A stretch of DNA of 64,000 nucleotides. Source: Fibrisoma montanum (GTDB lineage Bacteria > Bacteroidota > Bacteroidia > Cytophagales > Spirosomataceae). Both the position numbers and the translations under genes were made by a program. Shown here in pieces: positions 678 through 3,791 of this stretch (position 1 is its first letter; every line of letters starts with the position of its first letter). Location: the NCBI RefSeq assembly GCF_003583365.1, contig NZ_QXED01000001.1:1116001-1180000 (forward strand). Reading direction: 5' to 3'. The notes beneath the pieces are model-generated. The model was not told where the DNA came from, did not search any database, and saw only the letters and a list, made by a program, of their open reading frames with translations.

Positions 678-2459
678 TTAGTTACGGCCTTCCATTTGCT
701 CTTTCAATGCAGCCAGTGCATCCAGGTCTCCCAATGTAGCACCGCGTTCAGGCTGACTCTGTGTCGGCTTGGCAGACGATCCCGCTTTCGGCTTTTGCTC
801 CTTCGCGGGTTCATTCTTTTCCTGCCACGTTTTCGTGTGCGACAGCATGATCCGCTTCTCTTCTTTTGAGAACTCGGTCACTTTGAAGTCCAGGTTTTCG
901 CCTACTTCAGCCAGCGTACCGTCTTCCTTCGCCAGATTCTTCAGCGATGAGAAGCCTTCAATGCCATACGGCAGTTCCAGCGTCGCCATCTTGTCGGTCT
1001 TGCTCAGGATTGTGCAACGGTGAATCGTTCCAACCGCGAATAAGGTTTCGAACGTATCCCACGGATTTTCCTCCAGCTGCTTGTGGCCAAGCGCCAGACG
1101 ACGGTTTTCAACGTCCAGTTCAAGCACCACTACTTCCAGGTCTTCACCTACCTTGATGAAGTCTGACGGATGCTTGATCTTTTTGGTCCATGACAGGTCA
1201 GATACGTGTACCAGGCCATCGATCCCTTCTTCCAGTTCGAGGAACAGACCGAAGTTGGTCAGGTTACGCACAACTCCTTTGTGGCGAGTTCCCACTGCGT
1301 ATTTAGCCCGAAGTTCAGGACGCGTCCAGGGATCTTCGGTCAGTTGCTTGATGCCCAGTGACATCTTACGATCGTTGCGATCCAGCGTCAGAACAACGGC
1401 TTCGACTTCATCACCTACTTTCAGGAATTCCTGCGGGTTGCGCAGATGTTGCGACCACGACATTTCTGAAACGTGGATCAGCCCTTCGACACCCGGCATG
1501 ATTTCGAGGAATGCACCGTAGTCGGCTACGTTGACGATCTTGCCTTTCACGCGTGAACCCACCTGGATCTCTTCCGACAGGGCATCCCATGGATGAGCCT
1601 GCAGTTGTTTCATACCCAGTGAAATCCGCTTTTTGTCCTCGTCAAAGTCCAGAACAACTACGTTTACTTTCTGATCGAGGTGCAGAACTTCTGACGGGTG
1701 GTTGATACGACCCCACGAAATATCCGTGATGTGCAGCAGACCATCTACACCACCAAGATCGATGAACACCCCAAAGTTGGTCATGTTCTTGATCACACCT
1801 TCCAATACCTGACCTTTCTCGAGGTTGTTCAGGATCTGGGCGCGTTGTGCTTCAAGGTCTTTCTCGATCAAGACTTTGTGCGACACGACTACGTTGTCGT
1901 TTGCATAATTGATCTTGACAACCTTCACTTCCATTTTCTTGCCGACAAAAATGTCAAAGTCGCGAATCGGCTTCACGTCGATTTGCGAACCTGGCAAGAA
2001 GGCTTCAATGCTGTAAATATCTACAATCAGACCACCCTTGGTCCGGCGCTTCACAAAGCCGTCGATAACGAGGTCTTCGTCGAGAGCCTTCTGAATTTTC
2101 TGCCAGGCGGTAATTACCTTCGCTTTTTTGCGCGAAAGCACCAGCTGGCCATTCGGGTCTTCCTGATTTTCTACGTAAACTTCAATCTCATCACCCATTT
2201 TCAGGTCCGGCATATCACGGAATTCTGATACCGGTACCAACCCGTCCGATTTGAAACCGATGTTCAGGATAACCTCGCGGTCTGTGATCCCAACCACCGT
2301 ACCCGTCACCACTTCCTTCTCGTTAACCTGCGACAGGGTGTTGTCGTAGAGTTGCTCCATCCGGCTGCGCTCGTCAGCCGAATACCCGCTACCAAATCCT
2401 TTGTTGTCTGCCCGGTCCCAATCAAAATCCGGCAGTTCGCGTTTCTGCGTTTTGCTCAT
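678..2459 (-). CDS. rpsA: 30S ribosomal protein S1
   Basis: Ribosomal protein S1 binds mRNA at the 30S subunit and helps unfold and place it for initiation. The 593-residue product shows six OB-fold S1 repeats at about 50-111, 130-195, 216-286, 301-372, 388-459 and 475-540. Repeats 3 to 5 are the most regular (for example GVDGLLHITDISW, GVEGLIHVSEMSW, GIDGLVHVSDLSW). The last 50 residues are a charged, Lys/Glu/Gln-rich tail. Length and order match Bacteroidota S1. In this phylum Shine-Dalgarno sequences are rare, so S1 is expected to matter strongly for initiation. The gene has its own promoter, a structured leader and a terminator, so it appears to be a single-gene unit. Confidence 0.97.
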   Translation of the reverse strand: MSKTQKRELPDFDWDRADNKGFGSGYSADERSRMEQLYDNTLSQVNEKEVVTGTVVGITDREVILNIGFKSDGLVPVSEFRDMPDLKMGDEIEVYVENQEDPNGQLVLSRKKAKVITAWQKIQKALDEDLVIDGFVKRRTKGGLIVDIYSIEAFLPGSQIDVKPIRDFDIFVGKKMEVKVVKINYANDNVVVSHKVLIEKDLEAQRAQILNNLEKGQVLEGVIKNMTNFGVFIDLGGVDGLLHITDISWGRINHPSEVLHLDQKVNVVVLDFDEDKKRISLGMKQLQAHPWDALSEEIQVGSRVKGKIVNVADYGAFLEIMPGVEGLIHVSEMSWSQHLRNPQEFLKVGDEVEAVVLTLDRNDRKMSLGIKQLTEDPWTRPELRAKYAVGTRHKGVVRNLTNFGLFLELEEGIDGLVHVSDLSWTKKIKHPSDFIKVGEDLEVVVLELDVENRRLALGHKQLEENPWDTFETLFAVGTIHRCTILSKTDKMATLELPYGIEGFSSLKNLAKEDGTLAEVGENLDFKVTEFSKEEKRIMLSHTKTWQEKNEPAKEQKPKAGSSAKPTQSQPERGATLGDLDALAALKEQMEGRN

Positions 2460-2473
2460 AAAAAAATGTTTCC

Positions 2474-2516
2474 TGACCCACTCGGTACATCAGCCCGTGG
2501 GTCAATGGCGGGCTGA
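2474..2516 (-). promoter_or_regulatory. rpsA leader H-type pseudoknot (candidate S1 autoregulatory element)
   Basis: In the rpsA mRNA leader, UCAGCCC (complement of 2516-2510) pairs with GGGCUGA (2496-2490), and UGACCCAC (2504-2497) pairs with GUGGGUCA (2481-2474). The two stems are interleaved, which defines an H-type pseudoknot: stem 1 of 7 bp, loop 1 of 5 nt, stem 2 of 8 bp, no base between the stems, loop 3 of 8 nt. All 15 pairs are Watson-Crick. Stem 2 is followed at once by AGGAAACA, a T-run and the ATG at 2459. Several ribosomal proteins repress their own mRNAs through leader pseudoknots, and in vitro selected S1 ligands included pseudoknots. Autoregulation here is inference; the pairing is seen. 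Confidence 0.7.
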
Positions 2517-2556
2517 CTTTTGAGGTTTGTGAAAATTATGTTTCCAAAAAGGATTG

Positions 2557-2564
2557 CAAAGGTA
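2557..2564 (-). promoter_or_regulatory. rpsA promoter, -7 element TACCTTTG
   Basis: TACCTTTG on the minus strand fits the Bacteroidota -7 consensus TAnnTTTG. It would start transcription near 2550, giving a leader of about 90 nt that contains the whole pseudoknot. The upstream TTTTG at 2579-2583 is closer than the usual 19-21 bases, so the -33 element is unsure. Confidence 0.5.
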
Positions 2565-2710: not shown

Positions 2711-3226
2711 CTAATCAAACACCTTCTCGCGTTTGCTTAAAAATGGCATCCAGCTTTGTTCAAGGGAGCCGGAAAAATCGCGTAAAAAAACCAGAAACGT
2801 AGGTTTGAACGGTTTCTGGCGTAGTTTCATGTTTGCTTCCTCTGGGGTATAATCACCCTTGCGCGAATTACACCTTTTGCAGGCGGTGATCAGATTGTCC
2901 CAACTGGTTTTGCCCCCCCTTGATTTTGGCAGTACGTGGTCGAGTGTAAGATCCTCGGGGGTTCCACAGTACTGGCACCGATGACTGTCCCGCTTGAAGA
3001 TATTCTGCCGGGTAAGCATAACGCCTTTGTACGGCAGGCTGACGTAGCGGTGCAGGCGGATAACCGACGGCATGGGAAACTCGTCGTTGACAGTACGAAG
3101 CGTGAATTGCTCGGATTCAGCGACCAGTTCGGCTTTGTTCAGGTAAACCAGCAAAAACGCTTTGGGAACGGAACAGATGCTAAGCGCACTATAATCTTGA
3201 TTTAAGACTAATACTTTCCTGCCCAT
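2711..3226 (-). CDS. HNH endonuclease family protein
   Basis: The second half carries a compact treble-clef HNH nuclease domain: CQYCG, then LDHVLPKSRGG, then an Asn (WDNL), then CKRCNSRKG. This gives the His of the DH pair as general base and two CxxC knuckles for a structural zinc. The first half (LNQDYSALSICSV and following) matches the N-terminal part usual for a family of about 170 residues that is widespread in Bacteroidota and cyanobacteria. I chose MGRKVLVLN at 3226 (171 aa) because family members begin there; an in-frame ATG at 3274 would add 16 residues that look uncoded. Its substrate and cell role are unknown. It forms its own unit between rpsA and smpB. Confidence 0.85.
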   Translation of the reverse strand: MGRKVLVLNQDYSALSICSVPKAFLLVYLNKAELVAESEQFTLRTVNDEFPMPSVIRLHRYVSLPYKGVMLTRQNIFKRDSHRCQYCGTPEDLTLDHVLPKSRGGKTSWDNLITACKRCNSRKGDYTPEEANMKLRQKPFKPTFLVFLRDFSGSLEQSWMPFLSKREKVFD

Positions 3227-3329
3227 ATATCGGTTAGTCTCCTCTGTTTTGTAGCAAGTTACAGAGTTTTCCACACGGGCGCAAGAAATGAAATAAATAT
3301 TAACAAATTGATTTAACCAGGCAGATTCG

Positions 3330-3791
3330 TTAATACCGCTCCCGCTGCATTTCGCGTTCGACGTCGCGCTCTTTTATGCTTTCCCGCTTATCGTACAGCT
3401 TTTTCCCTTTCGCCAGGGCGATTTCCAGCTTGGCAAAACCACGATCGTTTGTGAAAAGCCGCACAGGTACGATTGTCAGGCCCTGATCCTTCAGCTTTTC
3501 GTTAAGCCGGCGCATTTCGCGCTTGGTCAGCAGCAACTTCCGATCACGAAGGGGCTCATGATTATAGTATGTCCCTTCGGTGTAAAGGGAGATGTTCATT
3601 TGCCGGATGAACAGTTCATCGCCCAGAAAAAGACAGTAGGCATCCTGGAGGTTTACCTTACCCTGCCGGACAGACTTTATTTCGGTACCAGTCAGCGCAA
3701 TACCCGCCGTGTAGGTTTCCAGGAATGAGTATTCGAAGGAAGCCCGGCGGTTACGTATATCAACTTGTTTTGAAATCGCAGCAGAAGCCAT
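3330..3791 (-). CDS. smpB: SsrA-binding protein SmpB
   Basis: SmpB binds tmRNA and brings it to stalled ribosomes for trans-translation. The 153-residue length is standard. Recognisable family features are the N-terminal NRRASFEYSFLETYTAGI stretch, GTEIKSVRQGKVNLQDAYC, the IRQMNISLY segment, the RKLLLTKREMRRL helix, the GLTIVPVRLF strand, and the basic C-terminal tail (KLYDKRESIKERD) that folds into the mRNA channel of the A site. The ssrA gene itself is not in the window. A -7 promoter element lies just upstream. Confidence 0.97.
   Translation of the reverse strand: MASAAISKQVDIRNRRASFEYSFLETYTAGIALTGTEIKSVRQGKVNLQDAYCLFLGDELFIRQMNISLYTEGTYYNHEPLRDRKLLLTKREMRRLNEKLKDQGLTIVPVRLFTNDRGFAKLEIALAKGKKLYDKRESIKERDVEREMQRERY

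Follow-up and report, generated by a model that had tools for sequence, protein, structure and literature searches.

A conserved H-type pseudoknot in the rpsA leader of Cytophagales, a candidate element for autoregulation of ribosomal protein S1

The rpsA locus and its leader

The window, the whole 64,000-nt (64-kb) stretch of Fibrisoma montanum DNA analyzed here, carries an rpsA gene on the minus strand, with the ATG at 2459 and the gene end at 678. Its product matched NCBIfam model NF004953 (30S ribosomal protein S1) with 917 bits and contains six Pfam S1 domains. The gene and the features of its leader, with the basis for each, are as follows.

2557..2564, minus: Bacteroidota −7 promoter box TACCTTTG, 105 nt before the ATG
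2517..2530, minus: A-rich single-stranded tract 5′ of the pseudoknot, with conserved AA...AAA (alignment column counts)
2509..2516, minus: stem 1, 5′ strand TCAGCCCG (pairing and covariation)
2505..2508, minus: loop 1, CCAT, 5 nt with a 7-pair stem 1 (pairing)
2497..2504, minus: stem 2, 5′ strand TGACCCA(C) (pairing and covariation)
2490..2497, minus: stem 1, 3′ strand CGGGCTGA, with base 2497 common to both stems (pairing and covariation)
2482..2489, minus: loop 3, TGTACCGA (pairing and column counts)
2474..2481, minus: stem 2, 3′ strand GTGGGTCA, whose end is 14 nt from the ATG (pairing and covariation)
2460..2473, minus: A/T-rich spacer to the start codon, with a nonconserved AGGA (leader comparison)
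678..2459, minus: rpsA, 30S ribosomal protein S1, 593 aa, six S1 domains (NCBIfam/Pfam)

The leader segment 2516-2474 (minus strand) folds into an H-type pseudoknot with 15 Watson-Crick pairs. In minus-strand reading, stem 1 pairs TCAGCCC(G) at 2516-2509 with (C)GGGCTGA at 2497-2490, and stem 2 pairs TGACCCA(C) at 2504-2497 with (G)TGGGTCA at 2481-2474. The pairs G2509-C2497 and C2497-G2481 are mutually exclusive, giving either 8 + 7 or 7 + 8 pairs; in the 7 + 8 form, the loops comprise 5 and 8 nt and no base lies between the stems. An earlier reading of the DNA (the sequence-only reading) had described exactly this 7 + 8 form, and the 14 bases that it counted from the pseudoknot end at 2474 to the S1 start codon were also exact. 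When at least 15 Watson-Crick pairs were demanded and no more than 1 nt was allowed between stems, the rpsA leader was the sole H-type pseudoknot on either strand of the 64 kb. Nested folding of the single sequence 2440-2560 gave an uninformative z score of −0.9, a value that refers to the plus strand, the gene being on the minus strand.

The AGGA said to follow the pseudoknot immediately is present but overlaps it, its A being the last stem base, and the stress laid on this motif was not borne out by its distribution. Only 7 of 79 relatives had GGAG, GAGG, or AGGA within 20 nt of the start, and AGGAG or GGAGG was found in 1/79 leaders; a canonical Shine-Dalgarno (SD) sequence is absent, as in the gammaproteobacterial S1 operator. 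Its lack of conservation led us to reject AGGA as an SD sequence beside the knot, and ribosomes of Bacteroidia reportedly make no use of such sequences (PMC9976891). The 12 nt before the ATG are unpaired, with 78% A+T.

Transcription is predicted to start at approximately 2550, a few bases downstream of the −7 box. A TAnnTTTG-type box was found 86 to 136 nt before the ATG and upstream of the pseudoknot in all 79 of the 79 relatives, and the pseudoknot should therefore be transcribed. A start downstream of 2516, named at the outset as an observation that would count against the structure, is at odds with the placement of this conserved box. By eye, many Cytophagales leaders (L006-L085) have a small hairpin in the 40 nt that follow the −7 box, e.g., CCGTTCGGGTGAACGG directly after it.

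Across the 79 relatives, rpsA is mostly isolated, the next same-strand open reading frame typically lying hundreds of nucleotides away, and no second ribosomal-protein (r-protein) gene was seen on its transcript; a tRNA-Cys gene lies downstream in 43/79. Just upstream of rpsA in the window, 2711-3791 (minus strand) holds a gene for an HNH endonuclease with IscB/Cas9-like HNH similarity, together with smpB. SmpB and S1 are both tied to tmRNA. The interval from the HNH gene to the rpsA promoter contains a long imperfect inverted repeat (2630-2695; 66-base self-match, 84%) that occurs at this one locus only in the host genome and may represent the terminator of the preceding gene; L006 has a still longer palindrome at the equivalent position.

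Conservation, covariation, and restriction to rpsA

Eighty rpsA loci, representing the nearest S1 relatives from approximately 13 Cytophagales families, were compared. Start codons of the relatives were corrected by hand, and 79 corrected leaders were scored over their last 66 nt; misses in the first scan often reflected wrongly chosen start codons, the knots being recovered after correction or by eye. The best pseudoknot score averaged 28.4 across the 79 relatives versus 17.5 in dinucleotide shuffles, with 63/79 above the 95th percentile of the shuffles and 48/79 above the 99th. As a control for bias, an independent sample of 67 leaders was drawn evenly from Cytophagales, of which 40 exceeded the 95th percentile of shuffles, and some leaders below the threshold show a knot by eye (e.g., L241 and L285). 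The pseudoknot is absent from a minority of Cytophagales families, and in L275, L277, L289, and L292 an AAAGGAG-like sequence stands in its place.

Typically, stem 1 has 5 to 9 pairs and stem 2 has 4 to 8, with 0 to 3 nt between them, and loops 1 and 3 measure 1 to 5 and 7 to 12 nt, respectively. The distance from the pseudoknot end to the ATG is 7 to 14 nt in most relatives (median, 10 nt), a position that we take to be within the 30S footprint. The second base of loop 3 is G in 79/80 leaders, whereas the other loop bases drift. An upstream reading frame from the loop ATG (UGAUGUA) was considered as a leader peptide and rejected, as it occurs in only 40/80 leaders and is spread over all three frames (20/10/10). 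Some Cytophagales S1 proteins carry N-terminal extensions of roughly 60 to 100 residues (L073, L080, L083, L088, L089, and others), and in these the pseudoknot still adjoins the start codon of the extended gene.

The 80 leaders were aligned with MAFFT on sequence only, and every column pair was scanned for covariation. The four top-scoring pairs overall were two from stem 2 and two from stem 1. The covariation score of the proposed pairs was 0.553, compared with 0.251 ± 0.014 after shuffling, and fell to between 0.06 and 0.13 when partners were slid by 1 to 3 columns. Paired cells amounted to 84.9% versus 67.8% in shuffles, and cells changed on both sides numbered 193 versus 76.5 ± 8.6; none of these three values was reached by any of 500 shuffles. 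The two helices are independently supported, with 84% and 86% of cells paired and changes on both sides in 6/6 and 5/6 pairs, respectively. On the S1-protein tree, column pairs 40-62, 41-61, and 54-83 each require at least 14 changes of Watson-Crick state. In phylogenetically independent comparisons, joint changes stood at 8:0 for pair 40-62 (P = 0.008) and 9.5:0 for pair 54-83 (P = 0.002), with weaker support for 41-61 (7.3:1.1; P = 0.07). Covariation of both stems, which the sequence-only reading had proposed as a check, is thus extensive among Cytophagales leaders, and together with the conservation it strongly supports the claim that the rpsA leader contains a functional H-type pseudoknot. 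The structure is a real, conserved structured RNA.

A covariance model of the leader was built from stem 1 and sequence; such models cannot encode pseudoknots. In the 7.8-Mb host genome, its sole match at an E value of ≤10 was the rpsA leader, and the 16 matches found at an E value of ≤0.1 across 59 Cytophagales genomes all lay upstream of S1. Three of 20 fetched loci had no S1 gene nearby, and their E values (0.19 to 0.30) were at chance level. Occurrence of this pseudoknot outside Cytophagales was rejected for the loci of other orders searched (L091-L174), from which the model returned only two weak matches, likewise at chance level (E values, 3.3 and 4.1). Whether a described RNA family already covers the leader had been left open by the sequence-only reading. 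Rfam 15 gave no match at gathering score for 2460-2560 and none at an E value of ≤10 over the leaders of 11 loci, ruling out a known Rfam family. An S1 leader is also absent from PMC7247131, PMC2864571, PMC8040213, and PMC6429828; an earlier description in Weinberg 2017 is possible.

S1 as candidate ligand and alternative explanations

Unfolding of mRNA on the ribosome is mainly the task of S1, which in gammaproteobacteria regulates its own expression; beyond that group, searches of Rfam and of the open literature yielded no described S1 leader. Compensatory sequence changes preserve the shape of the rpsA leader across Cytophagales, a pattern indicative of an undescribed switch through which S1 might regulate its own synthesis. 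We propose that the pseudoknot, whose two coaxial stems end approximately 7 to 14 nt before the start codon, is a cis-acting leader of the rpsA mRNA and that free S1 would bind it along with the A-rich tract on its 5′ side. Bound S1 would keep the knot closed or occupy it, the mRNA would not be accommodated by the 30S subunit, and S1 would thereby repress its own translation. Under S1 scarcity, limiting 30S-bound S1 would melt the knot, and translation would proceed. Repression by free S1 is favored because of the exclusivity to rpsA, the affinity of S1 for pseudoknots, the autorepression seen in gammaproteobacteria, the absent SD sequence, and the position within the presumed 30S footprint; autoregulation would also fit the isolation of the gene. 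We place the probability that free S1 binds the leader pseudoknot, traps the mRNA, and represses its own translation at roughly 0.6, with S1 as the probable ligand, repression as the probable direction, and trapping as the putative mechanism.

The choice of ligand follows a published rule, as r-leader ligands have been assigned from the sole associated r-protein gene (PMC7247131), and an element that stands before only one such gene is taken to bind its product. Nanomolar affinity has been reported for E. coli S1 and a selected H-type pseudoknot, and the protein also binds the tmRNA, preQ1, and rpsO pseudoknots (PMC7708055). The rpsO knot is melted by S1 on the 30S subunit (PMC3858243), and gammaproteobacterial S1 is a strict autogenous repressor of an mRNA without a canonical SD sequence (PMC10931766). 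A supporting parallel is the differently shaped pseudoknot found at the same place before rpsA in another order. At the same time, S1 binds single strands generally and unfolds pseudoknots as well, so the knot could raise rather than lower S1 dependence; the loop sequence is poorly conserved but for one G, such that a specific protein contact is not evident. The absence of the element from a minority of Cytophagales families likewise counts against the proposal.

Several known systems resemble the Cytophagales leader in part. The gammaproteobacterial S1 operator lies in the leader of the same gene and shares a weak or absent SD sequence and A/U-rich single strands; S1 is the known repressor there and the presumed one in Cytophagales (PMC10931766). 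Compared by description only, that operator differs in being a specific fold with AU-rich single strands to which several S1 molecules bind, and the review does not describe an H-type pseudoknot for it, whereas one is present in Cytophagales (PMC10931766). The E. coli rpsO (S15) leader, also that of an r-protein gene, has its H-type pseudoknot at the ribosome-binding site, and the trapping on the 30S subunit proposed for rpsA is modeled on this case (PMC3858243). Gene and ligand differ, however, and the rpsO knot includes coding sequence and an SD sequence, whereas the rpsA knot ends before the start codon and the SD sequence is absent. The S1 ligands selected by Ringquist in 1995, as relayed in PMC7708055 and PMC3879156, are likewise small S1-bound H-type pseudoknots; they are artificial, and their loops are said there to hold ACA, which is no feature of the Cytophagales family. 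The rpsU (bS21) gene of Flavobacterium johnsoniae is another case of r-protein self-control in Bacteroidota with SD-blind ribosomes, but it relies on an extended SD sequence and lacks a pseudoknot (PMC9976891). Eckert and Weinberg 2020 present 20 r-leader candidates that are also predicted and supported by covariation, several of them from Bacteroidia or Flavobacteria, but none is for S1 and rpsA is not mentioned (PMC7247131). The rpsA leader combines a covarying 5′ untranslated region structure with association with one r-protein gene, the features by which r-leaders are recognized, and is best read as a new family of r-protein leader that is autoregulatory for S1. A compact, rpsA-exclusive pseudoknot is a natural candidate ligand to match the known and unexplained preference of S1 for H-type pseudoknots, and it offers a direct test of initiation control in a phylum reportedly without SD pairing.

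Other explanations account for parts of these data. The knot could be a constitutive initiation element, serving as a docking or standby site for 30S-bound S1 or keeping the start region exposed, with a fixed rate and no feedback. This is in keeping with the docking and melting of structured mRNAs by 30S-carried S1 (PMC3858243), with the pseudoknot required for standby-mediated tisB translation (PMC7708055), and with the A/T-rich, unpaired 12 nt before the ATG, but a general aid would be expected at further genes and the model finds rpsA only; we consider it unlikely while giving it appreciable weight. That the leader responds to another r-protein, or to the 30S subunit in a special state as for bS21/rpsU of Flavobacterium, is improbable. 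Control of rpsU through 30S composition does occur in Bacteroidia (PMC9976891), yet it needs a strong extended SD sequence, which is absent before the rpsA start codon, and neither the transcript nor the motif was seen to be shared with another r-protein gene.

An H-type metabolite riboswitch, like preQ1, SAM-II, or SAM-V, would have a similar overall fold and nearness to the start codon. Here, the stems and nearly all loop bases are free to vary, leaving one near-invariant loop base, unlike a ligand pocket; Rfam gave zero riboswitch matches at an E value of ≤10 over the leaders of 11 loci, and rpsA would be the only gene controlled. A riboswitch was rejected, as conserved ligand-binding loop bases are absent, and its likelihood is judged to be very small. 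Structures at the 5′ end can protect an mRNA, and the 5′-terminal hairpin seen by eye near the start of many leaders would suit an element for mRNA stability or processing without a translational role; the constant spacing of 7 to 14 nt to the start codon fits initiation control better, which makes such an element very improbable. As for functionless similarity, whether from chance complementarity or from inheritance, nothing in its favor was left after testing: it is refuted by the covariation; uniqueness in the window, the excess over shuffles, and the result from the evenly drawn sample also speak against it, and its probability is negligible.

rpsA leaders in other Bacteroidia

A second rpsA knot was observed in L133, L148, L152, L155, L174, L212, L214, and approximately 36 further loci from another order, probably Bacteroidales. 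These leaders carry a terminal hairpin closed by UC...GA and followed by UACAA; in most of them, it lies approximately 15 to 20 nt ahead of the ATG. The loop of this hairpin pairs upstream to give an H-type knot, whereas the Cytophagales loop pairs downstream. The match between loop and upstream segment averaged 14.3 within leaders versus 10.8 ± 0.43 between leaders (z, 7.9; reached in 0 of 20,000 permutations). The ACA reported for the selected S1 ligands does occur here, in ATACAA after the knot. Rfam models covering the knot were absent from the 20 other-order loci scanned; the sole leader-region match among them was a Flavo-1 RNA (RF01705, 58 bits) at L152:179-254, which is located slightly upstream of the rpsA leader and away from the knot.

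The closing UC...GA and the A-rich 5′ flank and 3′ flank of the other-order hairpin resemble those of Cytophagales stem 1 (UCAG...CUGAUGUA). This resemblance is suggestive only of a hairpin common to both orders, with the direction of loop pairing switched. Tentatively, and with the odds against it, an ancestral S1-sensing hairpin might have stood before rpsA in Bacteroidia, its tertiary partner lying downstream in Cytophagales and upstream in the other order while the helix and a role in S1 feedback were kept. If so, these leaders would constitute a natural, specific family of S1 RNA ligands in ribosomes that ignore SD sequences.

A third type of rpsA leader was also seen, in which a short 5′ hairpin is followed by an AAAGGAG-like SD sequence ahead of the start codon, within a class reported to ignore such sequences. 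It occurs in other Bacteroidia (L093, L097-L103, L112-L114, and L142-L144) and in the Cytophagales loci L275, L277, L289, and L292.
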